Positions 982 through 22,378 of a DNA stretch of 45,747 nt are shown here, one piece after another. The DNA comes from Cellvibrio sp. UBA7671 (GTDB taxonomy: Bacteria; Pseudomonadota; Gammaproteobacteria; Pseudomonadales; Cellvibrionaceae), in the NCBI GenBank assembly GCA_002483145.1, contig DLHJ01000008.1:1-45747 (forward strand). The letters are read 5' to 3'. A program made the translations under genes and the position numbers. Within the stretch, counting starts at the first letter, position 1, and the number at the start of each line of letters is the position of its first letter. The notes beneath the pieces were generated by a model. The model worked only from the letters and a program-made list of their open reading frames with translations. It was not told where the DNA came from and searched no databases.

Positions 982-995
982 GGAGATTTTTGATC

Positions 996-9900: not shown

Positions 9901-12533
9901 GGGATAAAGTTGGCGTCAAACCAGATGTCTTGCAATTAGGTGATGGTATTGTCATTGATGATCTTTCATTCGTTCATTTTCGCGGTGAGGGATTGATAAT
10001 ATCGATTAAGGGAACGCAAGATAAAATTTCAATTTATAACTATTTTTCTGATGGTGTAATAACTAATCGCGTTGATTTGGTTAGGTTTTTCGATGGTACC
10101 ACATTAACTTTTGATCAAATAAGGTTGATGACAAATATTGGCACAAATGCAAACGATCTTCTTTACACCAATAGCGATACTTCGTTAATCGGTTTTGACG
10201 GTAATGATGATTTGTACTCAGAGGGTGGACTAAGTTCTTTGCTTGGAGGCGATGGTGACGATGCATTGCATACAAATGGAAATAATCTGTTGGATGGTGG
10301 TGCAGGTATAGATCTTCTTAAAAATGAGTACACCGATGGCATAGACAACAATATTCATATCGGGGGGCTTGGTGATGATGTAATTTCCGACCAGGGTGGG
10401 CATGATACATATCGTTTTAATCTAGGAGATGGATTTGATAAGGTTGTCGATAGTTCTGGAATAGATACTCTTGAATTTGGCATTGGAATTACTCAGGATG
10501 ACATCATTTTTACTAATGAGCATGGCGGGGTTGTAGTTACTTTTAAGCATTCACCTTATGATAAAATACAGTTTTCCGGATGGAATTTGGATAGTAGGGC
10601 GTCATATCTAGATGGAAAAATCGAAACAGTTAAATTTTTTGATGATACATCGATAAGTTTTGATGATGCGCCATTATTGGATGAAACTATTCCATGGGTT
10701 ACACCGCTTGAAATTAGAAGTGACGCCAGCTGGCTATATGTTGGTGGGCGTGCAGAACAAAGTGCCGCGGTATTTATTCATGATTCTGATGGCTTCCAAG
10801 TAGGTGCAGGCAATACCGATACCGTCCATGGATATTTTAATATAACTTTGGATAAAGTTTATTTAACGGGAGAAGATCTGTTTTTGTCTGTCCGTGATGC
10901 GGCAGGAAATACATCGGCTCCTCAAATTGTTAAAACTCCCGATAAAACGGCACCAACAGCACCGACCGCGAGTTTCGATGAGGTAGGCAAAGTTATTACC
11001 GGTGTAGCGGAGGCAGGCAGTACTGTCAGTGTTAAAAATGCAGGCGGCACCGTATTAAAAACGGCTACAGCAAACGCCACGACCGGTGCTTACACAATTA
11101 CGCTAACCACGGCCTTAATCAATAAGGAAGCAGTTAGTGTTACCGCAAAAGATGCTGCGGGAAATGTTTCTGCAGTGACACCATTGATTGCACCGGATAA
11201 AACCGCACCCTCTATACCAACAGCAAGTTTTGATGCCGCTGGCTTGATAATTAGTGGTGTAGCTGAAATGGGTAGCACGGTGATCGTTAAAAATGCGAGC
11301 GGAGTTGAATTAAAAACGGCTATCGCAAACGCAACAACAGGTGCTTATTCGATTACGCTGACCACAGCGTTAATTAATAAGGAAACCGTAAACGTTACCG
11401 CAAGAGATGCAGCAGGAAATATTTCGGCAATCAAAGCCATTAATGCCCCTGACAAAACAGCGCCAACAATTCCCACTGCGAGTTTCGATCCAACAGGAAA
11501 AATCATTACCGGTGTGGCTGAAGCAGGTAGTACAGTTAGCGTTAAAAATGCGGGTGGCACCGAATTGAAAACAGCCATAGCAAATGCAACCACCGGCGCT
11601 TACACGATTACGTTGACTACGGCCTTGATCAATAAAGAAACCGTTAACGTGACTGCAAAAGATTCAGCAGGCAATATCTCTGCCATCAGAGCCATTATTG
11701 CACCGGATAAAACAGCGCCAACAATTCCCACTGCGAGTTTCGATCCGACAGGAAAAATCATAACCGGCGTGGCTGAAGCAGGTAGTACAGTTAGTATTAA
11801 AAATGCAGCTGGTACTGAGTTAAAAACAGCTATTGCAAACGCAACAACTGGTGCTTACACGATTACGCTGACCACAGCGCTAATCAATAAAGAAACCGTT
11901 AACGTTACTGCCAAAGATGCAGCTGGAAATATTTCGGCAATAAAAGCTATCGTTGCACCGGATAAAACAGCGCCCTTAGCGCCGACAGCTAGTATTGATA
12001 CTTCCCGTAAAATCATTACGGGTACTGCGGAGCCGGGTAGTGTGGTTGAGGTAAAAAACACCGCGGGTACAAAGTTGGGTCAATTCACGGCTCACGCAAC
12101 AACTGGGGCCTACACCATCACTTTAGGGACCGCACTAGCCATCAATCAAACGGTAAATGTTACAGCGAAAGATGCAGCGGGTAATGTTTCTCCAATTAGA
12201 CCTGTGGTTGCTCCCGCCATGGCAAATAAAATGTTGGCTAGGCCCCAGTTTGCTAACAATCTTGGAATTCTCGAAACGGTCGCTGCTTACGCAAGTGAAA
12301 AGGCATCATTGGCTGCTTTTGGTAGTCATACAGAGACGGTTATTGCCAGTGCCACATCAGATTCCTTTGCTGCAACTCTGCCAGATAATAGAGATCGGTA
12401 CATATCGGGCAATGTTGATATTAATGCATTGATTCAGGCTATGGCGTCATTCGAGCCAGCCGTTGGAGTGGATATACGTAATCGCATAGCTTCTGTTGAT
12501 CAGCATCAGGTTATACTTGCTACTAGTAGTTAA
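996..12533 (+). CDS. Giant RTX protein: lipase-like domain, RTX modules, inserted metallopeptidase, Ig-like repeats
   Basis: 3845 residues from the ATG at 996, chosen because AAGGAG at 980-985 sits 10 nt upstream; an in-frame TTG at 939 lies inside the previous gene. Residues ~1-330 are an alpha/beta-hydrolase (lipase class 3-like) domain with the nucleophile elbow GHSLGG, giving a putative triad Ser181, Asp245, His278. From residue ~529 come many glycine/aspartate RTX nonapeptides (GGxGxDxL type) alternating with the ~125-residue haemolysin-type calcium-binding-related module. Residues ~1590-1870 interrupt one module with a peptidase-like domain (HEMVH at 1679-1683, NEGVAE at 1700-1705). Residues ~3316-3740 are five 85-residue Ig-like repeats. 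There is no N-terminal signal peptide, which fits type I secretion through a C-terminal signal, but no ABC/MFP/TolC exporter genes are in the window. Probable role: secreted or surface enzyme/adhesin that folds on calcium outside the cell. The substrate is unknown. Confidence 0.9.
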   Translation: MWNIELLIKYISAAQASYGNVLSGSFAGLVGTQESGFTEVQKIELGNKFSLVPKSGVHNESGFQAVLLQPSDGGNKILAIRGSEEIWNDFVDADLTDIGPEGFATDQALDLYRYWKRITTPAGVDVSYSLAEVNALWGIYELGDSFWGLFGDVAAFADMLRSDIGLGVLGVNEVVDITGHSLGGNLAYAFASMFPNNVNRVVTINAPGVDRVWINPLGDGQDELVDLGFSIVDGSKVTSINAEGDLVHLVSGAQPGTIVDISQEVGTIPLLDGLSINHSVVNSLDSLNLMKLFATLDPTQKADPSGILMRIIQRSSNEGINTFENMLDGLRKLLMGENIQFTPVGSKSDLEKREKLYENIKELSESGHFVNLKGHVTLIDSSTNSNAAKTNWSQFLSLYHGLPYALDGSEAILSQLDFTLYSMWKADSNLTIEERKNGKANFSDSWYEDRARYLQLLIERNEDNTDSDNSTDWFGKNGAYISIGNSYSDSGKIYSGFIDGDDLNEEPYPPRFVFGTNESNTPANTGSDGFVGGNGNDRIYGLGGDDKLNGLKGHDVLDGGAGVDELTGGEGADVLKGGQGKDVYVFDGNFGRDIVIDSDGSGTIVIDGVTLSSVKQTVKDGIAHRDSTNTVEVIKFDEGGSTSLLVTSLTNRNNSIHIKNWKEGELGINLAEFEPEEVASVKHVSGTGANDALYAERGKYLDDRGMEQIGNYVASEIHGGEGKDYIAGSYGADRLYGDGGNDWITAESIHFIIPEDPLPSTRGDDYIDGGEGDDVITGRAWSGAEWHGGDGKDMLLANVHMNIGETQADINNDNKSDDIVRWSDLLNHLISGFKIYEELQGDINLYTMSAWAGVEPGTYTGNSALGNGWTYEFVFTDPEPLHDPAETKGSGISLYSYIKASKNSEFNYSNPNVNDGEKLFLPSSLQLLHVPLPQGVTAESIVNTTYSYLFGDKGDDLLVGWYGRDELYGGEDNDALYGEQGNDLLDGGIGNDTLSGGDGADILLGGDGNDVLIEDHMSTGGGNDLMLGGKGDDNLNGWQGNDYLEGGAGADTLLGGDGDDILVGDVEDRGWGGGQDNDIYIIENLVFTNSELEAAANASPVQNANILPNITPTAAQNNEPANTISLFDDNGNNTLAIAGATLLEQISLNAQGQDLILRVGNGEIIIVNGLNDTINQIVFGDSAETLISQAQIGSINTNAVAMDDVIAARLTNDIARTAQAAGSMLVGGLGNDTLTAHAGGSTFLGSKGNDALIGNGGDDVYVIRSNDGQDTITESGGNNKIKFAEGIAPEQIILRRSNGNLLVLVASGESITVNGMFNTITGEVIDSNAIQSIEFANKTQWDLTRILQEAEKGSTLTGTDYLDVLTAYESNDTLIGGKGNDKLQGDKGDDHYHFALNHGADIVTDLNGHDHIHLADGISEAHVSLRKDTNNNLIIRINNTDSITVTAMFDAQGALTTGAIEEIHFGNTGVWNAERIASELARNQAHVFIGTDSNDVLMGDNANQTFMGHEGDDQLNGGAANDTYQYALGDGKDVIQDVNGIDRLQLTGIAESGVLARRVGADLQLTINTSDSITIKNAFDVKAANVVAPGIVGIIEQLQNRWLSQAEALIETHYGLTGSGNMLLEFEMDAVGGHAAHVETIYTQGVNTSTSVKLVIDLADFTGLPNGDGYLYYDRIIAHEMVHAVMSRNMNTSVLPGWFNEGVAEFIHGADERVAADLGIIGIQHNFNVLFKTTVGSPGIGAGYSVSYIAVKLLDKEIRDQGGLGIKEVFDQLKAGKTLDQALTTVSAAHGGMSGVWNNLASFESHFLTVGFSLYPTLLNFSDTDTGSIAGSDYGNASLSAESVLPEISTGPTKNFSLVIPEQYISSPEMNGALESIGFDSGAEWDLARITQEVLKPTSGNDTIHAFDTNDILSGAKGNDQLIGYAGDDIYRYDLGDGADVIIDSAGTDMIELGQDILEADVGLKRDAENNLVITSKDNSTITVNGAFDATGNFLAGAVESIKFLSGGIWDFTRIIQEVLKPTNGDDTIHAFDTNDILSGAKGNDQLFGYAGNDVYRYALGDGSDVIVDSAGADQIELGTDILEADVRLKRDAENNLLITLKDNSTITVNGAFDATGNFMAGAVESIKFLSGGIWDSVKIKAEVDKSGEFILTGTVSNDTLVGTSSKDVLIGGRGDDLLIAGAGDDVYQYGLGDGNDTIEDSMGIDRVELGQGISSGDITIWRINNDLIISLADGGGITVRDSFDFAGNFVSGAIEKIIFFGGEEWDSTKIKSKLRRLNVIDGTNANDNLQGTNDDDYISGFSGADVLTAGAGFDTLDGGSGDDQLMGGIGATAYVFSVGYGSDSINNAYRDWGALGLHADTIQFHESITVENILLTRAGEDLMIAVQGRVDRLVVEKYFSEDVLSNYAVENLKFFDGTVWDINYVKQQVLLGSSSNDVIYGYVQAESLNGFAGNDMVDGAGGNDTLSGGHGKDSLVGGVGDDLLVGGAGDDLLYGGQGSDTYFFEIGFGHDRILNDDIDPFGVNVDIIKFGEGINPNDLSISQVSHAGQISLLLSSSNGGSSLSIDRYFENDANSNYAVERIKFFNGVEWDVDYIKSSVLSSTGANDFLHGFATGDVVKGGAGNDEIYTYGGNDFIEGESGSDLLRGGTGIDTLKGGTGNDNLSGDDGADIYQFDVGSGQDTMHFYQNDTLRFGAGIYSHQIEFLNINNNYIVLKVNNQGDSIVMFDTPSLAEIQFDNGQVWNSQSIRDRISTASFVEGGIVIGTASGDILNGGFGDDTVSGSAGNDTIDGGFGNDSLDGGIGNDIYIFGKGSGHDVINSNDNTANKIDTIKIEEGLLPSDILARRSGADLILIAHDSIASLMIKNYFRNDGTSGYKIENISFSSGDVWDIAAVKSMVLVPTERDDTIYGYAVNEVISAGLGADSIYAGSGDDILDGGAGSDVLDGGVGGDIFNFGRGYGSDTIEGVWDKVGVKPDVLQLGDGIVIDDLSFVHFRGEGLIISIKGTQDKISIYNYFSDGVITNRVDLVRFFDGTTLTFDQIRLMTNIGTNANDLLYTNSDTSLIGFDGNDDLYSEGGLSSLLGGDGDDALHTNGNNLLDGGAGIDLLKNEYTDGIDNNIHIGGLGDDVISDQGGHDTYRFNLGDGFDKVVDSSGIDTLEFGIGITQDDIIFTNEHGGVVVTFKHSPYDKIQFSGWNLDSRASYLDGKIETVKFFDDTSISFDDAPLLDETIPWVTPLEIRSDASWLYVGGRAEQSAAVFIHDSDGFQVGAGNTDTVHGYFNITLDKVYLTGEDLFLSVRDAAGNTSAPQIVKTPDKTAPTAPTASFDEVGKVITGVAEAGSTVSVKNAGGTVLKTATANATTGAYTITLTTALINKEAVSVTAKDAAGNVSAVTPLIAPDKTAPSIPTASFDAAGLIISGVAEMGSTVIVKNASGVELKTAIANATTGAYSITLTTALINKETVNVTARDAAGNISAIKAINAPDKTAPTIPTASFDPTGKIITGVAEAGSTVSVKNAGGTELKTAIANATTGAYTITLTTALINKETVNVTAKDSAGNISAIRAIIAPDKTAPTIPTASFDPTGKIITGVAEAGSTVSIKNAAGTELKTAIANATTGAYTITLTTALINKETVNVTAKDAAGNISAIKAIVAPDKTAPLAPTASIDTSRKIITGTAEPGSVVEVKNTAGTKLGQFTAHATTGAYTITLGTALAINQTVNVTAKDAAGNVSPIRPVVAPAMANKMLARPQFANNLGILETVAAYASEKASLAAFGSHTETVIASATSDSFAATLPDNRDRYISGNVDINALIQAMASFEPAVGVDIRNRIASVDQHQVILATSS
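5777..6610 (+). other. Gluzincin-like metallopeptidase domain inserted in an RTX module
   Basis: This is a domain inside the RTX gene, about residues 1594-1872. The flanking sequence is a split repeat module: ITIKNAFD lies before the insert and GALESIGFDSGAEWDLARI after it. In the next two intact copies these two pieces are separated by only about a dozen residues. The insert contains HEMVH (1679-1683) and, 18 residues later, NEG with Glu1701. This matches the HExxH...E zinc-ligand pattern of MA-clan gluzincins, in which a W-F/L-x-E-G motif supplies the third ligand. The fold assignment rests on motifs only. Confidence 0.7.
6660..7409 (+). repeat. Two near-identical tandem 375-bp RTX modules
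   Basis: Two adjacent copies of a 125-residue unit. For example, GTGCTCAAACC starts at 6675 and again at 7050, and GATGCTGAAAATAATTTA recurs at the same spacing. Each unit holds an RTX turn (GAKGNDQL), a DxGDGxDV strand and the calcium-binding-related domain ending in FLSGGIWD. The copies differ mostly at third positions and a few residues, which suggests recent duplication inside the gene. Confidence 0.85.
10941..12215 (+). repeat. Five tandem 255-bp Ig-like domain repeats
   Basis: The phrase DKTAP begins at 10941, 11196, 11451, 11706 and 11961, an exact 255-bp (85-residue) period. Each unit contains ITGVAE(A/M)GSTV, ATTGAYTITL and NVTA(K/R)DAAGN, the pattern of the bacterial Ig-like domains common in large type I-secreted adhesins. 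Units three and four are the most alike, and unit five has diverged. They probably form a stiff stalk just before the C-terminal secretion region. Confidence 0.9.
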
Positions 12534-12757: not shown

Positions 12758-14398
12758 ATGAATAATTCCATGTCAGTTTCACGTTATTGCTCTGCAATTG
12801 TCAGTGTGTTTGCGTTACTGCTGGTGATCTTTACCTTGATTATCCCCAATCGCCTCACTGATATTCACTTTTCATCCCTCCTGGTTTTTCCACTTGAATT
12901 ATTGCTTGTCGGTCTATTGCTATTGCCGCCTGGTCGTATCGGCTTGGTTGTGCGTTGGGTGATGGCTGCTCTCCTGGCTTTGGGCGTCATTTTTAAATGT
13001 GCGGATATGGCGACTTTCAAGGTGTTTGCGCGACCGTTTAATCCGGTATTTGATGGCTATTTATTTGCTAACGGGATGAATTTGCTCAACGGGGCAATTG
13101 GTAAGGCTGGGGCATTGTTAGTGGCAGTGCTGCTGGCGTTGCTGGTGCTGGCAATTATCGCAGGTGCTTTCTGGGTGTTGGGGCGGGCACAAGGAGTGTT
13201 GTGTGTTTCAGTGCGCAAGTCTGCGACCTTGTTAGTGGGTGGGTTGGCTCTCTGGTCGGTATTATTTTTTGTTGAATCTCCGCGCGCATCAGTAGCGTTT
13301 TATCAACACTTGGCCGCGCATGCGCGCGATATTCTTGTTACTGCAGCGGATATCAAATCATTTAATGCGCAGTTGGCTAAGGTTGATGCGGTTGCCCCCA
13401 CTGATGCAAATTTATTTGCTCTCTTGCGCAGCAAAAATGTGCTGGTGATATTTGTTGAATCCTATGGCCGCACGGTGTTGGATAATCCTGAATTTGCGCC
13501 GCAGATCAGTCCCTTGCTGGAGCGCACCACGGGAGAATTAGCGGAGAAAGGTTTTACAGCGCGCAGCGGTTTTTTAACCTCGCCGACGGTGGGTGGGTTG
13601 AGTTGGCTTGCACATGGCACTGCTATGTCGGGCTTGTGGATTGATAACCAGATTCGCTACAACAGTTTAATGATCAGCGAGCGACCATCGCTCAACCGTC
13701 TATTTAACAAAGCGGGTTGGCGGACTGTAGCGGTAATGCCTGCAATTACCATGGATTGGCCAGAGGGAAATTATTACGGTTATGAGCATATTTATGATGC
13801 GTATAATCTTGGTTACCAGGGCAAACCTTTTAATTGGGTCACCATGCCCGATCAATTCACTCTCGCCGCGTTTCATGCGCGTGAGCTTGCCAAGCCCGCT
13901 ATTAAATTGGCGCATACACCGGTAATGGCAGAAATTGCGTTGATTTCATCCCATGCCCCCTGGACACCTGTTCCGCAATTAATCGATTGGCATTCTGTTG
14001 GCGATGGCTCTGTGTTTAATGAGCAAGCGATAAGTGGTGATAGCCCGGAAGAAGTTTGGAAAGATAGCGTGCGCATTCGTTTGCAATTTCGTTTATCCAT
14101 TGAATATGCGCTGCAAACCATTGCGTCTTATGTCATGAATTATGGCGATGATAATTTGGTGCTGCTGGTGTTGGGTGATCATCAGCCCGCGCCTATTGTG
14201 ACGGGTGATAGCGGTCACCTGACAAGCAGCGCGCGCGATGTACCAATCCATTTAATTGCGCGCGATCCGAAGGTGATAGACGCGGTAGCGCATTGGCAAT
14301 GGACGCCGGGAATGTTGCCCGCGGCCGATGCGCCTGTGTGGCGCATGGATGAGTTGCGCAATAGATTAATAGAGACTTTTTCACTGCCCGCGCATTAG
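12758..14398 (+). CDS. Membrane sulfatase / LtaS-like alkaline-phosphatase-superfamily protein
   Basis: 546 residues. The first ~190 hold about five hydrophobic segments (for instance LLLVIFTLII, LLVGLLLL, LLVAVLLALLVLAII), followed by a catalytic domain outside the membrane. This is the plan of LTA-synthase and phosphoethanolamine-transferase-like proteins. Family marks seen are VESYG at residue ~234 (metal-binding Glu), a PTVGGLSWLAHGT segment where the nucleophilic Thr or Ser would lie, and LGDHQP near the C-terminus, a typical metal-ligand Asp-His pair. It probably transfers or hydrolyses a phospho- or sulfo-group on an envelope glycan or lipid; the substrate is unknown. The stop codon overlaps that of the convergent methyltransferase gene by 4 nt. 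The start at 12758 was taken as the first ATG; a second ATG lies at 12770. Confidence 0.8.
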   Translation: MNNSMSVSRYCSAIVSVFALLLVIFTLIIPNRLTDIHFSSLLVFPLELLLVGLLLLPPGRIGLVVRWVMAALLALGVIFKCADMATFKVFARPFNPVFDGYLFANGMNLLNGAIGKAGALLVAVLLALLVLAIIAGAFWVLGRAQGVLCVSVRKSATLLVGGLALWSVLFFVESPRASVAFYQHLAAHARDILVTAADIKSFNAQLAKVDAVAPTDANLFALLRSKNVLVIFVESYGRTVLDNPEFAPQISPLLERTTGELAEKGFTARSGFLTSPTVGGLSWLAHGTAMSGLWIDNQIRYNSLMISERPSLNRLFNKAGWRTVAVMPAITMDWPEGNYYGYEHIYDAYNLGYQGKPFNWVTMPDQFTLAAFHARELAKPAIKLAHTPVMAEIALISSHAPWTPVPQLIDWHSVGDGSVFNEQAISGDSPEEVWKDSVRIRLQFRLSIEYALQTIASYVMNYGDDNLVLLVLGDHQPAPIVTGDSGHLTSSARDVPIHLIARDPKVIDAVAHWQWTPGMLPAADAPVWRMDELRNRLIETFSLPAH

Positions 14399-15198
14399 CG
14401 CGGCAGCGCCAATAAATCCCAATGTCCAATGGTGCAATTACCCTCTGCAATATTGGTAAGCCGAAATTTTTTCCAATCGTCCAGCTCGCTTTCTGTTAAA
14501 CCATAATGTTCATTGACTGCTGCGGTAATACCATTAATTAATTCGTTTAGCATAGGCTGGTCTTTTGCTCCCAATTGCCAAGGGCTGGGTTTAAGGCTGA
14601 CGTTATAGCCTTTGTTTTCCAGTGCTTTTTGCAAGTAGCCAGTGCACTCGGGGCCGAGTGCAGGCCCAAAACCTTTATCGCGGCGTTGGTCCTGATTAAA
14701 TGCGGCCAACACTTTTTCATCGAGCGGATGTGCCGGTGTCCATGTGGTGGTGCCATCATAATTCAGCGCTGCGTAGACGGCGGTTTTGCGTGCATCGAGT
14801 CGATCGATCAATGCATCAATAAATGCAGCTGATGCGAGATCAAATAAGGCCGAGGCAGAAACTATATGTGTACCTGTGAGTGGCAGTTCACCCACAATGT
14901 TCAAATCCGCCTGATAATCTTCAATTAAATATTGTTTGCCATGGCGGCGCAGGGCTTCATCCAATAATTTTCCATCCAGGTCCACCAGTCGCCACACAAT
15001 ATTGCTTGCGCCCAATTTATTCAGTGCACGCAAGCTGGAGCCAGTACCTGCACCCAGGTCAACAATAATGCGGTCGGGTGATACAGGGTCAGTTGCCTGG
15101 CCAAGCCATTCCAGCGCTTGTGTTGCCAGTGTTTTATCGCGCGCGGCAAAATCGGCGCCTTCACGTAAATCCAGCCATGCGATTGAAAAACTACTCAT
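14395..15198 (-). CDS. Class I SAM-dependent methyltransferase
   Basis: 267 residues. Motif I, DLGAGTG, is at residues 47-53, followed by an acidic residue in VDLDGKLLDE at the end of strand two. Both belong to the Rossmann-type SAM-binding fold. The target is not predictable from the sequence. The gene starts 3 bp after the stop of the glycosyltransferase upstream (15202-16254), so the two form a minus-strand operon. That operon diverges from the GTP cyclohydrolase II gene, which suggests that methylation and glycosylation finish the product of that pathway. Start ATG at 15198. Confidence 0.85.
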   Translation of the reverse strand: MSSFSIAWLDLREGADFAARDKTLATQALEWLGQATDPVSPDRIIVDLGAGTGSSLRALNKLGASNIVWRLVDLDGKLLDEALRRHGKQYLIEDYQADLNIVGELPLTGTHIVSASALFDLASAAFIDALIDRLDARKTAVYAALNYDGTTTWTPAHPLDEKVLAAFNQDQRRDKGFGPALGPECTGYLQKALENKGYNVSLKPSPWQLGAKDQPMLNELINGITAAVNEHYGLTESELDDWKKFRLTNIAEGNCTIGHWDLLALPR

Positions 15199-15201
15199 TG
15201 G

Positions 15202-16254
15202 TTACTCACTTTTTCTGTTCGTTTGATTAATCAGGTGTGCGACTACTGCCGCTGTATCTTTCCAGTTTGGGAGATGGTGTGCAGCAGCTTGTGCGCCGGT
15301 TTGGAATTGTTTGCGCAAGGATGTGTCGGCCAATAATTTATGCAGCGCATCTGTGAGCGCAATCAAATCATCTGGTGCAACTAAAATACCGGCGCTATCG
15401 GGCACAACCGCAGGTACCGCACCGGTGCGCGCGGCCACAATGGGTAAACCAAAGCTCAGCGCTTCCGCAAACGCCATCCCATAGCCTTCAAATAATGATG
15501 GCAGCACAAACAGATCGGCATTGGCATATTCGCTGGCTGAATCGGCCACATTGCCGACAAACAGGATGCGCTCTTTCAACCCGTAAGTGGCCACTTTATT
15601 TTTTAACAGTGCAACCCATGCAGGATCAAAATTCATTCCGCCAACAAAACGCGCGCTCCATTCGAGGTGTTTAATTCTGGCGAGTGCATCAATCAATAGA
15701 TCATGGGCTTTGCGGCGGGTCAGTGTTGCCAGAGTTAACAGTACCGGCGGATTGCCATTGCAGGGCGCAAATGTTTGTGGGTCAGTGCCTGGCAGTGCAA
15801 CAACAATTTTTGTGGCGGGAATCGCAAATTGTTCGATGAGAATTTTACCGGTCATATGGCTGGTGACTATCACCGCTTTTGCCGCATTAAGCGCGCGTTG
15901 CTCTGCTAAAAAAAGTTGCTGCATTTGCGCAGTCGATAAACCTGCTTCCAGCATCAGTGGGTGATGGCAGAGTGCAATAATATTCAAACGTGCTGCATGT
16001 TGTATAGCAATAGTGTCCATGACTCCGTAAGCGAGGCCATCAGCAATCACTATGGCTTGGTCGGGCAGGGCAGCAAATTGCGCGGCAGCATCGGCGAGCG
16101 CTTCTGCATCGGGTACCGGGAAGCGATTGGATAAGTGGAGATGTTCAATCTTGTGACCCAGTGCTTGCAACTCTGCGATCAATCGTCTGTCATAGGAATA
16201 ACCACCGGTCAAGGTGTTGATATCGCCAGGGATTGCAAAAAAAAGTTCAGCCAT
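15202..16254 (-). CDS. Glycosyltransferase family 4 (GT-B fold, retaining)
   Basis: 350 residues, normal for GT4. The N-terminal acceptor domain begins FFAIPGDINTLTGGYSYDRR, a Gly-rich loop typical of the family. The C-terminal donor-binding domain has the EX7E motif, Glu256 to Glu264 (EGYGMAFAE), followed by GLPIVAARTGAVPAVV. It would transfer a sugar from a nucleotide-sugar donor in the cytoplasm. Its position as the first gene of a two-gene operon with a methyltransferase, facing ribA-type genes across 262 bp, suggests that it decorates a small molecule rather than building a capsule. No other sugar-nucleotide or polysaccharide genes are beside it. The donor and acceptor are unknown. Confidence 0.88.
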   Translation of the reverse strand: MAELFFAIPGDINTLTGGYSYDRRLIAELQALGHKIEHLHLSNRFPVPDAEALADAAAQFAALPDQAIVIADGLAYGVMDTIAIQHAARLNIIALCHHPLMLEAGLSTAQMQQLFLAEQRALNAAKAVIVTSHMTGKILIEQFAIPATKIVVALPGTDPQTFAPCNGNPPVLLTLATLTRRKAHDLLIDALARIKHLEWSARFVGGMNFDPAWVALLKNKVATYGLKERILFVGNVADSASEYANADLFVLPSLFEGYGMAFAEALSFGLPIVAARTGAVPAVVPDSAGILVAPDDLIALTDALHKLLADTSLRKQFQTGAQAAAHHLPNWKDTAAVVAHLINQTNRKSE

Positions 16255-16516
16255 TACCGCAACGCTCGTTGAATTTTTTAGTTAAACAAAGCCGCACAAT
16301 TCTCTACCAGTGCCGGGTGTATTGCCAGTAAATTAACTGGCTGGATTTGGCCATTTATCAGCAAAAATATACACTTGCCTGTTGAATTATGAGCATAAAA
16401 AGCAGTGTTGTGCGCAGATCAATACTAATCGGGAACTTGCCTTGCCTATTGCGATACTGAGCCGTAAGATCGCGGCCTGCGTATAGATATTACCTTTCAC
16501 ATTGAAGATGTTGTGT
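16255..16516. promoter_or_regulatory. Divergent promoter region between glycosyltransferase and GTP cyclohydrolase II
   Basis: 262 bp shared by two outward-facing units, so promoters for both must lie here. I looked for the conserved core of an FMN riboswitch, which often precedes extra riboflavin genes, and did not see it. No clear palindrome was found. GAAG at 16504-16507 is the likely ribosome-binding site of the + strand gene. Confidence 0.5.
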
Positions 16517-17170
16517 ATGTCAAAACCATCTGTTACTCGCACTGCAGCCGCTCGAATTCCCACTCGGTACGGGGATTTCCAATTGTGTTACTACACCAAT
16601 ACCTCGGACAATAAAGAGCATCTGGCTTTTTATATGGGGGATCTGGCGCAGGCAGAGGCTGTGTTGGCTCGCGTCCATTCAGAATGTTTTACCGGTGATG
16701 TGCTGGGTTCATTGCGCTGTGACTGCGGTGAGCAATTGGATCGCGCATTGGCGTTGGTTGCAAGCGAAGGATTGGGCGTGGTGATTTACCTGCGTCAGGA
16801 AGGGCGCGGTATTGGCCTTGAGCAAAAGTTGCTGGCGTACAATTTACAAGACCAGGGTTACGATACAGTTGACGCCAACCTGATGTTGGGTCATGGTGCT
16901 GACGAGCGAAGCTACTCGCTAGCAGCTTGCATTCTCGACGATTTGGGTGTGCAATCAGTACGCTTGATGACCAATAATCCTGCCAAGATCAACGCCTTGC
17001 AGGCCGAAGGCATCAAGGTGGTTGCGCGTGTCCCGCTGGAGATTGCAGTTAACGCTGAAAATCAGGGGTATATGATCACCAAGGCCAAGCGTATGGATCA
17101 TCTTTTATTTAGCAAGCCGTTTGTTTCATCCCATCACAGTGATTTGCATGAACCTCAACCAACGAATTGA
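16517..17170 (+). CDS. ribA: GTP cyclohydrolase II (RibA-type), probably a second copy in a special pathway
   Basis: The enzyme opens the imidazole ring of GTP, releasing formate and pyrophosphate and giving 2,5-diamino-6-ribosylamino-4-pyrimidinone 5'-phosphate. Zinc ligands Cys57, Cys68 and Cys70 keep the spacing of E. coli RibA (11 then 2). RVHSECFTGDVLGS and YLRQEGRGIGL are classic active-site blocks, and the length (217 residues) is normal for a stand-alone RibA. The ATG at 16517 is preferred because GAAG lies 9 nt upstream; ATG at 16508 and TTG at 16502 are alternatives. It is followed, with a 23-nt overlap, by a RibD-type reductase. No ribB, ribE or ribH and no FMN riboswitch are present, which argues for a specialised route, as in toxoflavin-type pathways, rather than bulk riboflavin synthesis. 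Confidence 0.9.
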   Translation: MSKPSVTRTAAARIPTRYGDFQLCYYTNTSDNKEHLAFYMGDLAQAEAVLARVHSECFTGDVLGSLRCDCGEQLDRALALVASEGLGVVIYLRQEGRGIGLEQKLLAYNLQDQGYDTVDANLMLGHGADERSYSLAACILDDLGVQSVRLMTNNPAKINALQAEGIKVVARVPLEIAVNAENQGYMITKAKRMDHLLFSKPFVSSHHSDLHEPQPTN

Positions 17171-17861
17171 AGACTGGCTGTCCGATAATAAAAACGCTTT
17201 TCGTTCGCTCGACCGGCCCTTTGTTACCCTCAGCTATGCACAGAGCCTCGATGGCAGTATTGCGCTGCGCTGCGACGAACCGCTCGCATTGAGTGGTGAT
17301 GAGTCGCTGCGTTTAACGCACCAATTGCGCAGCATGCACGACGGCATTTTGGTCGGCATAGGCACCGTATTGAGTGACGATCCACAGCTCACCGTGCGCC
17401 ACTGGATTGGTCACAATCCACAACCAATTGTATTGGATAGCCAATTGCGCATTCCCGCAAAAGCACGTTTGTGTTGCTTGCCGGATAAACGCTGCTGGGT
17501 GTTAACCACCGTTGATGACCAGGGCACAGTGATTGAAGGTTTGGAAATTACTGCGCTGGAAGGCAATGCGGATGGTCAAGTATGTTTGCAGCGCGCGCTA
17601 AAATTATTGTGGAGCCGCGGTATTAAAAGTTTAATGGTGGAAGGTGGTGCAAGTGTTATCAGCGCTTTTTTAAAAGCCCGTCTGGTTGATGCACTGGTGC
17701 TCACCATCACCCCGCAATTTGTTGGCGGTTATAAAGCCGTGAATGATTTGGGTAAAGTATCGCGCTGCGCATTACCCAAACTAAAACCCTTTTTCTCCGA
17801 GCGTTTGGGTGATGACCTGATCGTGTGGGGTAATTTGGATTATGGTGATTACGCAGCATGA
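17148..17861 (+). CDS. RibD C-terminal-type pyrimidine reductase
   Basis: 237 residues from the ATG at 17148; the in-frame TTG at 17121 lies deeper in ribA. The protein has the dihydrofolate-reductase-like fold of the RibD reductase domain: RPFVTLSYAQSLDGSIA at the start, HDGILVGIGTVLSDDPQLT for NADPH and substrate binding, and LMVEGGASVISAFL near the C-terminus. The deaminase domain of bifunctional RibD is missing. In the riboflavin pathway this reaction turns the ribosyl side chain into a ribityl chain. Here it follows the GTP cyclohydrolase with overlapping reading frames and may act on the same pyrimidine or on a pterin made from it. The next gene overlaps its stop by 4 nt (ATGA), so translational coupling is likely. 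Confidence 0.88.
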   Translation: MNLNQRIEDWLSDNKNAFRSLDRPFVTLSYAQSLDGSIALRCDEPLALSGDESLRLTHQLRSMHDGILVGIGTVLSDDPQLTVRHWIGHNPQPIVLDSQLRIPAKARLCCLPDKRCWVLTTVDDQGTVIEGLEITALEGNADGQVCLQRALKLLWSRGIKSLMVEGGASVISAFLKARLVDALVLTITPQFVGGYKAVNDLGKVSRCALPKLKPFFSERLGDDLIVWGNLDYGDYAA

Positions 17862-18922
17862 CGAATACGCTTATCAAACAACACTCAGTGCATGCGCAAC
17901 AACTTTGGTTTACCGGCGTTGAACAAGTTGCCGTGCGCGAACACATTCTTGCTGCACTGTGTGCAGATGAATTACTGGTCGAAGTGGAATGCTCAGCGAT
18001 CAGCGCCGGGACTGAAATGCTGGTGTATCGCGGGCAAATCCCCAACGATATGGCACTCGATGCGACTATCACCGCGCTACAAGATCAACAGCAATATCCA
18101 CTGCAATACGGCTACGCCAGTGTCGGAATTGTGAAAACCATTGGCATCAATGTGGATGCCAAATGGCTCGGTCAGCGCGTATTTGCCTTTCAACCCCACG
18201 TCAGCCATTTCATCACCACACCTGCAAACCTTATCCCTGTTCCTGCCGATATAGCAGCGGAAGATGCCGTATTTTTGCCCAATATGGAAACCGCCGTGAA
18301 TTTGATTCAAGACGGCAGCCCTGCGCTGGGCGAACGTGTTGTGGTATTGGGGCAGGGTATAGTGGGTTTATTGCTTGCAAATTTATTGGCGCAATTCCCT
18401 CTGGCGCAATTACATGCGGTAGATGCGATGCCATTGCGCCGTGAACGCGCTTTGCAGCTCGGTGTAAACAATGTGTTCGATCCTTTTTCTTCTGCAGATA
18501 CCCGTGCGCTTAAGCAACAATTAACGGTTGCAGAAAATAACAAAGGCGCTGATCTTATTTATGAAGTCAGTGGCGCTCCTGATGCATTAAATCTTGCGAT
18601 TGGGTTAAGTGGTTTTGCCAGCCGGATTGTTATTGGCAGCTGGTATGGCAATAAAACGGCAGCGATTGCGTTGGGTGGTGAGGCGCATCGCAATCGGTTA
18701 AAAATTACTACCAGCCAGGTCAGCAGCATTGCGCCGGAATTAAGTGGTCGCTGGGATAAGACCCGCCGCTTTGATCTCAGTTGGCAAATGTTGCGCAATT
18801 TGCACCCCAGCCAATTAATCACTCATCGCTTCCCACTCAGTGATGCACCAGCGCTTTATCAACGTTTGCATCAATCGCCGGCAGAGATACTGCAGGCTAT
18901 TTTTTCTTATTCACATTCTTAA
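17858..18922 (+). CDS. Medium-chain dehydrogenase/reductase (zinc-type alcohol dehydrogenase-like)
   Basis: 354 residues. The N-terminal GroES-like domain carries CSAISAGTEMLVYRGQIP, where classical alcohol dehydrogenases have C-G-x-C-G-T-D, and the structural-zinc cysteine cluster is absent. This is the BchC-like subgroup of MDR enzymes. The NAD(P)-binding Rossmann motif is VVVLGQGIVGLLLANLL (GxGxxG). The start ATG at 17858 shares 4 nt with the stop of the reductase gene, so it belongs to the same operon. It probably oxidises or reduces a side-chain hydroxyl or carbonyl of the cluster's intermediate. The substrate cannot be predicted. A 40-bp gap leads to the PTPS-like gene. Confidence 0.85.
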   Translation: MTNTLIKQHSVHAQQLWFTGVEQVAVREHILAALCADELLVEVECSAISAGTEMLVYRGQIPNDMALDATITALQDQQQYPLQYGYASVGIVKTIGINVDAKWLGQRVFAFQPHVSHFITTPANLIPVPADIAAEDAVFLPNMETAVNLIQDGSPALGERVVVLGQGIVGLLLANLLAQFPLAQLHAVDAMPLRRERALQLGVNNVFDPFSSADTRALKQQLTVAENNKGADLIYEVSGAPDALNLAIGLSGFASRIVIGSWYGNKTAAIALGGEAHRNRLKITTSQVSSIAPELSGRWDKTRRFDLSWQMLRNLHPSQLITHRFPLSDAPALYQRLHQSPAEILQAIFSYSHS

Positions 18923-18962
18923 ATTTCTTCAGATTATCATTTTTTAGTAGGCAGGAATTGTT

Positions 18963-19340
18963 ATGTATACCGTTGCAGTTACCCGCGATTTTATCGCCAA
19001 CCATTTTCTGATCGGCGGCGATTGGGGCAGTGAAAATTTTCCGCACGCACATCACTATGTAGCGGAAGTCAGTATCGAAAGTAACCAGTTGGACAAACAC
19101 GGTTATTTAGTGGATATCGTAGAAATAGAAGCAGCGCTGGATAAAGTGGTCGGTTATTTTCGTGATAGCCTGCTAAACGATAAAGAAGAATTTGCCGGGT
19201 TAAATCCCAGCATTGAACATTTCAGCCGCATTATTAATGAAAAAATTATCACGCTGATTCATCCGCCCGGTACTGGCTCGCTCAATATTAAATTGTGGGA
19301 AAACGCTACTTGCTGGGCGGCGTATCGCAAACAATTTTAA
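18963..19340 (+). CDS. 6-pyruvoyltetrahydropterin synthase / QueD family enzyme with Glu in place of catalytic Cys
   Basis: 125 residues, normal for the family. Zinc-ligand histidines are His14 (ANHF), His28 and His30 (PHAHHY). The catalytic Cys, which normally lies four residues before the HxH pair, is replaced by Glu24 (GSENFPHAH). That change is known from the PTPS-III subgroup, which cleaves the side chain of dihydroneopterin derivatives instead of making pyruvoyl-pterin. AGGA at 18953-18956 is its ribosome-binding site. Last gene of the + strand operon ribA-reductase-MDR-PTPS. Its stop overlaps that of the convergent membrane-protein gene by 4 nt. The actual substrate is open, because the operon supplies a GTP cyclohydrolase II product rather than the FolE product this family usually uses. 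Confidence 0.85.
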   Translation: MYTVAVTRDFIANHFLIGGDWGSENFPHAHHYVAEVSIESNQLDKHGYLVDIVEIEAALDKVVGYFRDSLLNDKEEFAGLNPSIEHFSRIINEKIITLIHPPGTGSLNIKLWENATCWAAYRKQF

Positions 19341-20371
19341 CTTTCTCTTATCACTTTGGTTTGCGCGTTGGTGGAATTGCTAGCGCGCAAACAGGCAAGT
19401 CCAATTATCAATACGATCGCATCACGTACACGCATTAACGCAATTAAACCCAGTGCGGCGCTGGCAGGTAAATTCAACGCGTGAAATGACCAGAGTACAG
19501 ACGCCTCAATAGTGCCAACTCCACCGGGCATAGGTAACAAAAGCGCCATCCGCATCGCCACCAGAATAATAAGAAAACTATGCAGGTCTGCTTCAATTCC
19601 CACAAAGCGCAAAATCAAATACAGCTCGCCTAATAATACTGCCCAGCCGAGTAGTGATAATAGAATCGCAAGCAGAAAACGTGTTTTTTGTGTGCGCAAC
19701 GCAATACGTAAATCATCACCCAATGATTGCCAGTGTTGATTGATATTGTTCAAGCGATGATTGTGTTGCCAGCGCGCGGCTATGCGTTCAAGGCGATTGT
19801 TTATCCATTGCGGTTGTTTTATTAGCATCCATGCGAGCGAAAACATCAGGCCTAAAAAAATCAGTAGTGGCACCAGCGCAGTTTGCCAATCGCCGATTGT
19901 GCTAGTGGTATTGTTGTCGCCGCTATTGTCGCCAATACCGGTAAGTAGTAGCAGCACGGCCAATAGCAGCACTGAAAAATTAATCCACAACTCAAAAAAG
20001 CGATCCAAACCAAGCGACAAAAGTGCTTTGGGCAGCGGCAGGCCGTATTTATATAACCAATAGACTTGTAGTGGTTCGCCACCAAATTGTGGGCCAGGTG
20101 TAATAAAGCTCACTGCTTGCCCCGCTTGGCGAATCGCTAAAAGCCTTAGCAGTCCTATCGGTGCGCCTAGCGCGATATTTAGCAGTTGCCAGCGCAGGCC
20201 GAGCACTAGAATAATCATCCCATTCAACCCTAGCCAAAAAATCCATTGCATTGTGCTAAGTGAACTAATGCTGTTGGAGATTTCTGCAAGTGGTAGTTGT
20301 GCTAGTGTCCATGCACCCAAACTCAAAGCGACTAACCACAAGAGTAATGTAAATAATTTGGCGCGCTGCAT
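19337..20371 (-). CDS. Lysylphosphatidylglycerol-synthase-type transmembrane protein (UPF0104-like)
   Basis: 344 residues, almost wholly hydrophobic, with about eight predicted membrane helices. The middle region has GQAVSFITPGPQFGGEPLQV, close to the conserved P-G-x-x-G-(G/E)-P segment of this family. A second landmark is LLPMPGGVGTIEASVLW near the C-terminus. These are the flippase-like membrane domain of MprF, without the soluble aminoacyl-transferase domain. Such stand-alone proteins are often found beside lipid or glycolipid synthesis genes. Its ATG shares one base with the stop of the CDP-alcohol phosphatidyltransferase gene upstream (TGATG), so the two are translationally coupled. It may move a lipid-linked product across the inner membrane; this is inference. 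Confidence 0.8.
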   Translation of the reverse strand: MQRAKLFTLLLWLVALSLGAWTLAQLPLAEISNSISSLSTMQWIFWLGLNGMIILVLGLRWQLLNIALGAPIGLLRLLAIRQAGQAVSFITPGPQFGGEPLQVYWLYKYGLPLPKALLSLGLDRFFELWINFSVLLLAVLLLLTGIGDNSGDNNTTSTIGDWQTALVPLLIFLGLMFSLAWMLIKQPQWINNRLERIAARWQHNHRLNNINQHWQSLGDDLRIALRTQKTRFLLAILLSLLGWAVLLGELYLILRFVGIEADLHSFLIILVAMRMALLLPMPGGVGTIEASVLWSFHALNLPASAALGLIALMRVRDAIVLIIGLACLRASNSTNAQTKVIRES

Positions 20372-21486
20372 CAGGATTGCTCCTCGCCATCGCGGCGCTT
20401 AACCCAGCGGTCATCCCACTGCCACAAGCTGAAGCGGCCAGTGCCCAATAACATTAACCAAACGCTGCTAAAAATAATCACCGTGATGATGCCATCGATT
20501 TGTTTGTCGTCGTGCAAGAGTGTAATCAGTACTAACAGCGCGAGTGCGCATACGCGACCAACCAGCCCCACTAATGTTGCACCGGCAATGATCAGCAAAC
20601 CCGATGCCCATATGGATGAAAGAGAATTGCCGTTAAATATAAACAGCACTGTCGCGATGAGCACTGATGCGCGCAACAGCGGCTGAAAAATATTATGGCT
20701 AAATAGTGCGAGGTGATTGAATACCTGCTGAGTGGTAGCAGTAGCCGGAATTCTGCCGCTCACAATTAACCAATCCACGATAAAACCCAGCAGGATTGGC
20801 AGCATAAACGCAATGCCGATAATCATAGTCAGCGGGGCATGGAAACAGGGCAATAAAATAAAGGCGACAAAACCCATTTGGAAGCCCGCCAGCGTGCGGC
20901 GCAACATGCTGGGCATTAGTGGATAAACCGGTAAATGATGCATGCGCCGCCAATACAATCCCCATACAAAAACATAATAGGCTGCGCTCACCAATAAAAA
21001 ACTCCAGTGAAGTTTGCCATAACCTACAGCAAGTAGTGGCGCGACTAATAATCCCAATGCGTCGTATACGGTATCCAGCTCGTTGCCCAATAAACTGGTG
21101 TGTTTGCTACGCCGCGCGACATAGCCATCCATGCGGTCGAGAATGGCGGCGATGCAATAGAGCACACCGGGAATCCAGGCCATTAATCCTGTCGCTTGCG
21201 GCTGAAACAAAAAACCACCGGTCAATGCAATCAGTCCACCGCGCACTATACTTAAGTGATTGGCCAAGCCCAGTGTTGGATATAATGCATCTTGTGCGCT
21301 GACGCGGTTTAAATCGAGCCGTCTCCATAATTGCCACCCGACAAACATCCACAAGGCCATCGCAAACAAATACCACTGCCCTGCATTAAGGTGTGTGAAT
21401 TGATGGATGCCAATAGCGGCTACGATCAACAGTGCTATGCCGAGAATGCCAATTGCTTGAGTTTCACGTTTGATTGGTTGCAACAT
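20371..21486 (-). CDS. CDP-alcohol phosphatidyltransferase family membrane protein
   Basis: 371 residues with several membrane helices. The family signature D-G-x2-A-R-x8-G-x3-D-x3-D is complete: Asp120-Gly121, Ala124-Arg125, Gly134, Asp138 and Asp142. These enzymes join an alcohol to a CDP-activated lipid or polyol, releasing CMP. The protein is longer than the usual ~200 residues, with extra helices at the C-terminus. It is coupled to the flippase-like gene that follows and faces a PhyH dioxygenase gene across ~140 bp. Its presence beside glycosyltransferase and pterin-type genes suggests that the product of the cluster may be attached to a phospholipid, but the acceptor alcohol is unknown. 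Confidence 0.85.
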   Translation of the reverse strand: MLQPIKRETQAIGILGIALLIVAAIGIHQFTHLNAGQWYLFAMALWMFVGWQLWRRLDLNRVSAQDALYPTLGLANHLSIVRGGLIALTGGFLFQPQATGLMAWIPGVLYCIAAILDRMDGYVARRSKHTSLLGNELDTVYDALGLLVAPLLAVGYGKLHWSFLLVSAAYYVFVWGLYWRRMHHLPVYPLMPSMLRRTLAGFQMGFVAFILLPCFHAPLTMIIGIAFMLPILLGFIVDWLIVSGRIPATATTQQVFNHLALFSHNIFQPLLRASVLIATVLFIFNGNSLSSIWASGLLIIAGATLVGLVGRVCALALLVLITLLHDDKQIDGIITVIIFSSVWLMLLGTGRFSLWQWDDRWVKRRDGEEQS

Positions 21487-21625
21487 GGTTCGGGTATCTG
21501 AATAAAATCAAAGAAAGCTATCCTATACAGCCCATTTGGGTTTGGGGAGTAAAAACTGCTTTTCCCTCGGGCTTGTTCGTTGTTTAATTCGCGCCCTGAT
21601 GATTTCATCCAATTGAGTTTTGCTG

Positions 21626-22378
21626 ATGTTGACCCCTGCACAAATTCTTGAGTTCAGAAATAACGGCTATCTGGTATTGCCTGGATTTTCCACCGTACAA
21701 TTTTGCGATGCGGTAGTGGCTTTTGCGCGCAATGAATTACAACAGCATAAAATACCAATTGAATATGAGGCTGATGTCCAGTACCCCGGTGCTCCCGCTT
21801 CTCGAACTGCGGTGGGCGGTGGAACCGCACGGCGATTGTTGATGGCGTCGGCGCGCGCACCTATGTTGCGTGACTGGGCAACGGGTGATTCGCTTAAAGA
21901 AATTTTGCAGGAGTTGTTGGGGTCAACTGTTTTTTTATCCCAGGCGCATCACAATTGCATCATGACCAAACAGCCAGCATTTTCCAGTATGACAGGATGG
22001 CATCGCGATAGCCGCTACTGGCATTTTGCGCGCGCTGATTTAATATCGGCCTGGTTGGCTTTGGGGAACGAACAGGCCGAAAATGGTTGCCTGTGGGTCA
22101 TTCCCGGCTCGCATCGCCTGGAAATTGATGCAGATCAGCTGGATGAAAAACAATTTCTCAAAGCCGACTTGGTAAAGAACAGGCACTTGTTGCAGCAGGC
22201 GCTTGCAGTGCCGCTGCAACAGGGTGATTTACTCCTATTTCACAGCAATCTCTTTCACGCTGCTGGCCGCAACACCACTGAAAACCCCAAGTTTTCGATG
22301 GTGTTTACCTATCGTTCAGCCGACAATCCTCCCAATTCAGGCTCCCGCTCAACCTCACAGCCAGAAATACTCCTTTAG
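21626..22378 (+). CDS. Phytanoyl-CoA dioxygenase (PhyH) family Fe(II)/2-oxoglutarate oxygenase
   Basis: 250 residues from the ATG at 21626. The in-frame TTG at 21620 is less likely, because GAG at 21615-21617 is correctly spaced only for the ATG. The iron-binding facial triad is His126-x-Asp128 (GWHRD) and His211 (LFHAAGRN). Arg215 is in position to bind 2-oxoglutarate. VIPGSHRL is another PhyH family mark. It hydroxylates a small molecule in the cytoplasm. It diverges from the phosphatidyltransferase operon and may oxidise the product of the neighbouring cluster. Independent function is equally possible, because a different gene type (GH53) follows. Confidence 0.85.
   Translation: MLTPAQILEFRNNGYLVLPGFSTVQFCDAVVAFARNELQQHKIPIEYEADVQYPGAPASRTAVGGGTARRLLMASARAPMLRDWATGDSLKEILQELLGSTVFLSQAHHNCIMTKQPAFSSMTGWHRDSRYWHFARADLISAWLALGNEQAENGCLWVIPGSHRLEIDADQLDEKQFLKADLVKNRHLLQQALAVPLQQGDLLLFHSNLFHAAGRNTTENPKFSMVFTYRSADNPPNSGSRSTSQPEILL

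Follow-up and report, generated by a model that had tools for sequence, protein, structure and literature searches.

A set of nine neighbouring genes in the genome of Cellvibrio sp. UBA7671 (5.04 Mb) is a real and widely conserved association that looks like an uncharacterised pathway, a variant of a gene neighbourhood that has been partly noticed before. The genes lie on contig DLHJ01000008.1 (contig C19 of the genome), whose whole 45,747-nucleotide (nt) stretch is referred to here as the window, and encode a GTP cyclohydrolase II (RibA), a RibD_C-type reductase (RedR), a zinc-less dehydrogenase of the MDR family, a PTPS/QueD-family protein, a GT4-family glycosyltransferase, a methyltransferase-like protein, a CDP-alcohol phosphatidyltransferase, a flippase-like membrane protein and a sulfatase-like membrane protein (Table 1). 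In our preferred reading, to which we assign a probability of roughly 0.55, they form one conserved pathway that converts GTP into a pterin, adds a sugar and a methyl group and, in many lineages, links the product to a phospholipid; the start from GTP and the pterin-type core are its best-supported parts. This reading builds on the identities of the genes, their co-conservation, the conservation of residues and the separateness of the set from the riboflavin and queuosine genes, all of which are observed.

As the initial annotation described, the four genes from ribA to the PTPS gene are tightly packed on the plus strand, ribA and RedR overlapping by 23 nt (17148-17170) and RedR and the MDR gene by 4 nt (17858-17861). 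The MDR and PTPS genes are separated by a gap of 40 nt. They are flanked by a GT4-methyltransferase operon divergent from ribA, the two genes of which are 3 nt apart, and by the phosphatidyltransferase and flippase-like genes, which overlap by 1 nt; coordinates, positions and strands bear this layout out.

Conservation and separateness of the gene set

Co-occurrence of the families across genomes had been set beforehand as a test, and they are conserved together across phyla and, in part, across domains, with relatives of the set in Gamma- and Alphaproteobacteria, Chloroflexota, Actinomycetota and haloarchaea. The MDR was found in 27 of 398 sampled Pseudomonadota genomes (E 1e-45), 20 of which served as a held-out set after omission of the own genome, two already sampled and four others. 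Each of these 20 loci, found by the MDR alone, carries three to eight partner genes: PTPS (20), GT4 (19), methyltransferase (18), RedR (16), ribA (9), CDP-alcohol enzyme (6), flippase (5), sulfatase-like protein (3) and YceI (2), five of the loci being same-order relatives of genomes used to train the profile hidden Markov models (HMMs). Around 20 other MDR genes of the family genomes, taken as controls, 15 regions had no partner and five had GT4-type matches only. Since the held-out loci are rich in partners and the control regions nearly empty (three to eight partners in 20/20 vs 0 or 1 in 20 controls), chance clustering was rejected.

The partners were also counted in two further sets. A class-wide search of 369 genomes (E <=1e-40) returned 21 MDR matches, that is, 20 loci outside the own genome, with PTPS in 18, RedR and GT4 in 17 each, methyltransferase and CDP-alcohol enzyme in 15 each, flippase in 12, YceI in nine, ribA in eight and the sulfatase-like gene in two; these loci also contributed to the training of the profile HMMs, and three of them come from genomes of 1.0-1.1 Mb. 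When genome contigs were scanned with the window-lineage MDR only, at least 593 stretches were obtained, of which 552 were confirmed and the best 80 kept (the best-80 set). Here the MDR (80) is accompanied by PTPS (74), GT4 (66), RedR (63), flippase (54), methyltransferase and ribA (52 each), CDP-alcohol enzyme (46), sulfatase-like gene (21) and YceI (13), many of the loci stopping at contig ends, so that gene absences among them are soft, and several coming from the same genomes as the family set. The HMMs behind these counts were trained on the family and class loci, and those for the held-out set on the best-80 loci as well. Record titles of the best-80 set name Gammaproteobacteria, Chloroflexota/Anaerolineae, Neomarinimicrobiota and others, and the titles of metagenome-assembled genomes (MAGs) may be wrong. 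Two contigs of MAG SAT189 (L127 and L128) seemingly hold the same cluster at identical coordinates and are perhaps an assembly duplicate. Additional recurrent families sought in the other loci were mostly lineage-specific neighbours and shadow open reading frames (ORFs).

Within the Cellvibrionaceae, the MDR (identity >=55%) was found in 14 of 144 genomes, the own one included, 12 of which fall among the 21 genomes of the window's genus. All 13 other family loci, three of them short contigs or contig ends, keep RedR, MDR, PTPS, GT4 and the CDP-alcohol enzyme; the methyltransferase is present in 12, the flippase in 11 and the sulfatase-like gene in 10. The last of these, located just left of the span described earlier, belongs to the set, because it occurs in these 10 loci and the other three are truncated by contig ends. 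The PhyH dioxygenase gene adjoins the cluster in only one of the 13 (the L044 contig stops before that place), and its proposed membership was rejected. The MDR gene is split over two frames in L052:9844-10882 and L053:2503-3358, through decay or assembly error.

The ribA gene is full-length or nearly so in five of the 13 family loci, and in another (L041:8509-8595) only its final 29 codons, the stretch overlapping RedR, are left, with the rest of the cluster kept. Genomes lacking the locus ribA (G018, G027) have two GTP cyclohydrolase II matches and those carrying it (G000, G017) have three; since these numbers track the locus ribA, the latter seems to be an additional, dedicated copy for which the riboflavin gene can stand in. 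A separate and complete riboflavin operon, the search for which had been proposed as a check, lies on contig C3 and encodes a deaminase-bearing RibD, the lumazine-binding RibE, RibBA (DHBP synthase fused to GTP cyclohydrolase II), RibH and a second RibA, so the cluster ribA is not the sole GTP cyclohydrolase II of the genome. FolE is encoded on C11, QueC on C14 and a PTPS-family protein of about 300 amino acids (aa) on C9.

These locations bear on the suggestion that the set is a housekeeping duplicate, its PTPS being the organism's QueD or folate enzyme and the rest feeding riboflavin. PTPS-type proteins are commonly QueD and the genome does encode QueC; however, six same-genus genomes without the cluster manage with QueC and only the ~300-aa PTPS protein, and five with the cluster have both PTPS proteins, so the window PTPS is dispensable as QueD. 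With FolE and a full riboflavin operon elsewhere, and a PTPS motif that matches none of the published QueD, PTPS-II and PTPS-III motifs, this explanation is already contradicted and has very little left to recommend it. A use of the cluster for folate in the three genomes of 1.0-1.1 Mb, which lack PF01227, was dropped as they carry PF02649. In a 3.6 Mb genome listed as 100% complete and holding a full cluster (G401, locus L080), neither FolE (PF01227) nor FolE2 (PF02649) was found, which makes it a candidate for pterin supply by the cluster.

Plasmid records extend the distribution. From 40 match rows, some representing the same record, 17 stretches were taken, with MDR in 17, PTPS in 16, methyltransferase in 15, GT4 in 14, CDP-alcohol enzyme in nine, RedR in five, flippase in three, and ribA and the sulfatase-like gene in two each. 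An Agrobacterium pAt plasmid has all nine window families, and the Streptomyces fungicidicus locus combines the CDP-alcohol enzyme, MDR, PTPS, GT4, methyltransferase and ribA with a creatininase-family protein. Further loci come from Microbacterium, Methylosinus trichosporium OB3b, Thiodictyon, Rhodobacteraceae, Neorhizobium and Arthrobacter (the one unannotated stretch), and nine are haloarchaeal, with PTPS in eight and the CDP-alcohol enzyme in five.

Core enzymes and the proposed route from GTP to a pterin

The window RibA has the features of a GTP cyclohydrolase II, with a PF00925 match of 225 bits and the cysteines and the AYxLQD tyrosine kept. This tyrosine is the product-determining residue of the enzyme, and it is kept in 50 of 52 RibA ORFs (the other two being unreadable) and in 14/14 of another set. 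It sets the cluster enzymes apart from Streptomyces coelicolor SCO6655, which is reported to stop at the formamidopyrimidine since Met replaces Tyr. GTP cyclohydrolase III belongs to a protein family distinct from RibA and also opens GTP; in four of the nine haloarchaeal loci (Haloarcula pelagica, H. halophila, Haloarcula sp. GH36 and Natrarchaeobaculum sulfurireducens) this enzyme, also named IIa and matched by PF05165 in all four, lies directly upstream of the MDR gene and overlaps it, and PTPS follows in three. Because two unrelated GTP-opening enzymes thus adjoin the same dehydrogenase, the pathway likely starts from GTP, and the GTP-derived start of the initial annotation gains in strength from this non-homologous enzyme in the equivalent place. 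Creatininase-family proteins, a family which we take to be that of archaeal formamidopyrimidine (FAPy) deformylase, occur in 10 loci (4/20 of the class set, 4/20 of the phylum set and 2/17 plasmid stretches, the profile being seeded by the two plasmid loci that it then counts), and the profile matched in 0/80 best-80, 0/13 family and 0/20 control loci.

RedR matches PF01872 alone and has no N-terminal deaminase domain; it is hence not a bifunctional RibD, and the other RibD of the genome does have PF00383. Its best PDB chains, with near-equal scores, are 6p8c (named 2,5-diamino-6-ribosylamino-4(3H)-pyrimidinone 5'-phosphate reductase), RibD 2b3z and 2azn, and, although it is a stand-alone RibD_C domain similar to 6p8c and 2azn, it scores 120.7 bits against TIGR01508, below the cut-off of 186.45. 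Having no deaminase domain and being no closer to RibD than to the stand-alone diaminopyrimidine reductases, RedR should, judging by sequence, leave in place the 2-amino group characteristic of pterins. Fusions of ribA and RibD_C in L076, L077 and L168 support RibA and RedR as consecutive first steps.

The MDR lacks the catalytic zinc ligands (Cys, and His of the GHE motif), as alignment with zinc MDRs shows, with no Cys among the residues listed at position 50. Gaps aside, S49, E53, Y86 (Tyr in 149, two gaps), H114, E144 and the GxGxxG glycines do not vary among 151 sequences, and position 189 holds Asp in 130 and Glu in 21 of them, which suggests an NAD-linked enzyme. A PF04029-type phosphatase is encoded about 1 kb downstream of the MDR in six chloroflexotal loci (by Pfam match for L156 and L161), which fits a dephosphorylation near the MDR step.

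We infer the chemistry of the individual steps, above all from the MDR on, from these identities. RibA, or GTP cyclohydrolase III in some haloarchaea, would open GTP to a formamido- or diamino-ribosylamino-pyrimidinone 5'-phosphate, and RedR would turn its ribose into a ribityl chain with the 2-amino group retained. The MDR may then oxidise the ribityl chain, C2' being the simplest site. A ketone at that carbon of the reduced intermediate would allow ring closure with the 5-amino group to a dihydropterin, dihydroneopterin phosphate, and a pterin of this type could thus form without GTP cyclohydrolase I, after which the PTPS homologue might bind it and alter its side chain.

The window PTPS carries the motif E24-N-F-P-H28-A-H30 (ENFPHAH). 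PMC5041015, in the part of it that treats the motifs, gives those of PTPS-I, -II and -III, raises the idea that the substrate of archaeal PTPS-III might be a monophosphate, and mentions a link of PTPS-IV to F420 as unpublished. The window protein shares the Pfam family and H14, H28 and H30 with PTPS-I/QueD (CxxxHGH), but has Glu for Cys four residues ahead of the first His of the pair and scores 41.5 bits against TIGR03367 (cut-off 89.25). It is not PTPS-II (CxxxxxHGH), nor PTPS-III (ExxHGH), its Glu being one position further off and HAH replacing HGH, nor PTPS-IV (FGPAQ), having WGSEN at the aligned place, although the gene neighbourhood is common to both. Among 143 PTPS sequences from the loci, 88 are of the ExxxHxH class with H14, E24, H28 and H30 all kept, 43 are of an FGPA class with A24 and no third histidine, and 12 are others, ten of which carry Asn at 28. 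E113, presumably the glutamate that anchors the 2-amino group and hence the pterin in this family, is kept in 138 of the 143 (five gaps).

The motif classes agree with the split of an MDR tree from which short sequences had been dropped: 42 of the 43 FGPA-class loci were retained and form, with one locus lacking PTPS, a single clade (support 0.998), and the remaining loci, the window included, form the other (support 0.787). The cluster of the window belongs, by motif and tree, to a sister lineage (ExxxHxH) of the PTPS-IV neighbourhood, of which no description was found in the open-licence literature.

A different product, such as a compound of the flavin, lumazine or toxoflavin type or a derivative of free ribityl-diaminopyrimidine, would suit RibA and RibD_C, both of which are part of such routes, and RedR scores well against bacterial RibD too. 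It is nevertheless improbable in view of the missing deaminase domain of RedR and of a PTPS homologue that accompanies the MDR in 74/80, 20/20 and 16/17 loci and keeps E113; moreover, the recurrent families inspected included no other conspicuous riboflavin gene, no search having been aimed at such genes in the loci. The toxoflavin cluster has a RibD with a deaminase domain and WD-repeat and TRP2 proteins beside GTP cyclohydrolase II, and these were not among the ten window proteins scanned.

Sugar, methyl and lipid genes

In the preferred pterin pathway, GT4 would add a sugar and the methyltransferase a methyl group, steps that follow from the frequent company of the two genes. The PDB matches of GT4 are headed by Tll1590, followed by D-inositol 3-phosphate glycosyltransferase and phosphatidylinositol monomannoside mannosyltransferase among others. 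GT4 and methyltransferase matches stand in one open frame in L079:9724-11658, L238:6590-8548 and L240:10397-12328, possibly as fusions. The CDP-alcohol phosphatidyltransferase, which has the motif D..DG..AR........G...D...D with its residues invariant in 13 aligned sequences, may join the product to a phospholipid in many lineages; the flippase-like protein could then carry the lipid to the other face of the membrane, and a phospho-group may be attached outside by the sulfatase-like protein. The sulfatase-like protein matched nothing in Pfam, even at E 5, nor in the PDB at E 0.001; in Agrobacterium, the homologue encoded next to the cluster carries the annotation 'sulfatase' and matches Pfam Sulfatase below threshold. 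We take the window protein to be LtaS/OpgB-like. As to phosphatidylinositol-type lipids, the combination of a CDP-alcohol enzyme with a GT4 of such matches would be comparable, but GTP-opening enzymes stand alongside and no inositol gene was noticed.

The attachment to a phospholipid put forward in the initial annotation was upheld in part, with the CDP-alcohol enzyme in 46/80 and the flippase in 54/80 loci; the former is missing in 14 of the 15 held-out loci from other proteobacterial classes, and the attachment is likely in many lineages rather than general. The same absence, like the separate transcription units indicated by strand in the window, favours two modules: one of ribA, RedR, MDR and PTPS, with or without GT4 and methyltransferase, which would make a soluble pterin bearing a sugar, and one of the genes for the CDP-alcohol enzyme, the flippase and the sulfatase-like protein, which would make a separate lipid. 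Such a division seems rather unlikely, given that the CDP-alcohol enzyme is on the same strand as GTP cyclohydrolase III and the MDR in Haloarcula, adjoins the MDR in Streptomyces and Microbacterium, and precedes the flippase and ribA in Chloroflexota L153, L163 and L167.

Besides the missing CDP-alcohol enzyme, several observations weigh against a single GTP-to-pterin pathway. RedR is absent from all nine haloarchaeal loci; GTP cyclohydrolase III is missing from five of them, which limits the case for a GTP start, and haloarchaea need this enzyme for riboflavin anyway. The Natrarchaeobaculum locus has GTP cyclohydrolase III and MDR and no PTPS, GT4 or methyltransferase match (nothing in Pfam matched the protein that follows its MDR), and the three Haloarcula loci are close relatives with a weak GT4 match (35-36 bits). 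RedR is absent from 17/80 and ribA from 28/80 best-80 loci, and both are missing nearby in 14 of 20 loci titled Chloroflexota/Anaerolineae, some with full 9 kb flanks, these absences referring to the locus only, as the genes may sit elsewhere in those genomes. L086 combines MDR, CDP-alcohol enzyme and sulfatase-like gene without PTPS. The oxidation at C2' is a guess from chemistry, and the catalytic Asp-His pair of PTPS enzymes is not conserved. Without E24 and the third histidine, the FGPA class may differ in chemistry from the window class, and of the five AlphaFold models made for the PTPS, one was confident.

Taken further, the pathway might represent an additional route to pterins that bypasses GTP cyclohydrolase I, in which GTP cyclohydrolase II or III acts first, one reduction by a reductase and one oxidation by a zinc-less dehydrogenase take the place of the internal sugar rearrangement, and a PTPS homologue finishes. 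Its glycosylated, methylated pterin would then serve as the head group of membrane phospholipids of a new class in bacteria and haloarchaea, perhaps a membrane-bound redox carrier. This combined proposal is tentative and more doubtful than the pathway itself; if true, it would add a pterin route and a pterin-headed lipid class to textbook metabolism, and give a function to PTPS-IV and SCO6650-type proteins.

Other genes recur beside the clusters. Cytochrome b561 genes lie nearby (L228:3841-4389, L247:12503-13060, L249:11975-12508 and others) in 4/80, 7/20 and 2/17 loci, the profile being seeded by three of the loci counted, and in 0/13, 0/20 and 0/20 control loci. YceI genes recur beside clusters of other lineages, which, together with cytochrome b561, might point to a membrane redox link. 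An MdoH-like membrane glycosyltransferase gene adjoins the MDR in seven of the 15 loci of other proteobacterial classes (L224, L228, L229, L232-L235), one of the seven proteins having been scanned and found to be GT2-type, and a gene annotated mdoH is present in the Methylosinus and Neorhizobium loci (L246:7070-8872; L259:6085-7998).

Relation to known systems and features of the window

The best PDB match of the window PTPS family is Streptomyces coelicolor SCO6650 (3d7j, E 1.9e-12), near which SCO6655 is presumably encoded as a GTP cyclohydrolase II paralogue; to our knowledge no role has been assigned to either protein. The riboflavin pathway has the same first enzyme and reductase family, and differs in that RedR lacks the deaminase and in that the deaminase-bearing RibD is encoded in a separate operon. 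The closest precedent in print is found in the passages of PMC5445326 (2017) on PTPS-IV, where 561 sequences, preferentially bearing the PTPS-IV signature FGPAQ, are grouped in one node and PF00925 and RibD_C (PF01872) are among the gene neighbours of that node. The FGPA-class loci (43/143) look like that group, a PTPS homologue lying near PF00925 and PF01872, whereas the window PTPS has ENFPHAH instead of FGPAQ and the window MDR falls in a separate clade; the PTPS-IV neighbourhood text of PMC5445326 makes no mention of MDR, GT4, methyltransferase, CDP-alcohol enzyme or flippase. The open-licence literature, supplements excluded, yielded nothing on the ExxxHxH lineage, the MDR or the lipid genes in such a setting. 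The statement that no named pathway has this combination consequently holds for the exact combination, for which none was found, and has to be qualified by the association of PTPS-IV with PF00925 and RibD_C already described in those passages of PMC5445326. Most annotated records of such PTPS proteins, among those retrieved, are named 6-carboxytetrahydropterin synthase. The marker MDR occurs in cultured strains, including Methylomonas sp. LW13, Methylosinus trichosporium OB3b, Streptomyces fungicidicus and Haloarcula species, and no product was found for it.

Table 1. Features of the gene set and its surroundings (window coordinates)
Feature	Position	Strand	Basis or remark
Sulfatase/alkaline-phosphatase-type membrane protein ('LTAS')	12758-14398	+	Putative periplasmic phospho-group transferase
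Class I S-adenosylmethionine-dependent methyltransferase-like protein	14395-15198	-	Sub-threshold Pfam methyltransferase matches; DLGxGTGS motif in alignment
GT4-family glycosyltransferase	15202-16254	-	PF00534 and PF13692 above cut-off
Divergent intergenic region GT4/ribA	16255-16501		No Rfam match
GTP cyclohydrolase II (RibA)	16502-17170	+	PF00925, 225 bits
RibD_C-type reductase without deaminase domain (RedR)	17148-17861	+	PF01872 only
Zinc-less MDR dehydrogenase, probably NAD-linked	17858-18922	+	PF00107
PTPS/QueD-family protein, ExxxHxH motif	18963-19340	+	PF01242
LPG_synthase_TM/flippase-like membrane protein	19337-20371	-	PF03706, 129 bits
CDP-alcohol phosphatidyltransferase	20371-21486	-	PF01066
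PhyH dioxygenase	21620-22378	+	PF05721; neighbour, outside the conserved set

The start of ribA is uncertain (TTG 16502, ATG 16508 or ATG 16517); that of RedR is ATG 17148 by alignment, the predicted ORF start, TTG 17121, lying upstream. No Rfam riboswitch was matched upstream of ribA in the window or in L039, the two loci scanned, and promoter and terminator predictions showed no excess over shuffled sequence. Elsewhere in the window, positions 939-12533 form a single ORF of 3864 aa which, by eye, has a lipase-like start, glycine-aspartate-rich repeats of the calcium-binding type and, toward its end, several near-identical immunoglobulin-like repeats, and which is probably a giant secreted RTX-type protein. 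On the other side of the gene set, positions 23836-24468 encode a small secreted protein with a PEP-CTERM-type tail (VPEPSTLLLILGGLLSLAGVRLRKAQ).

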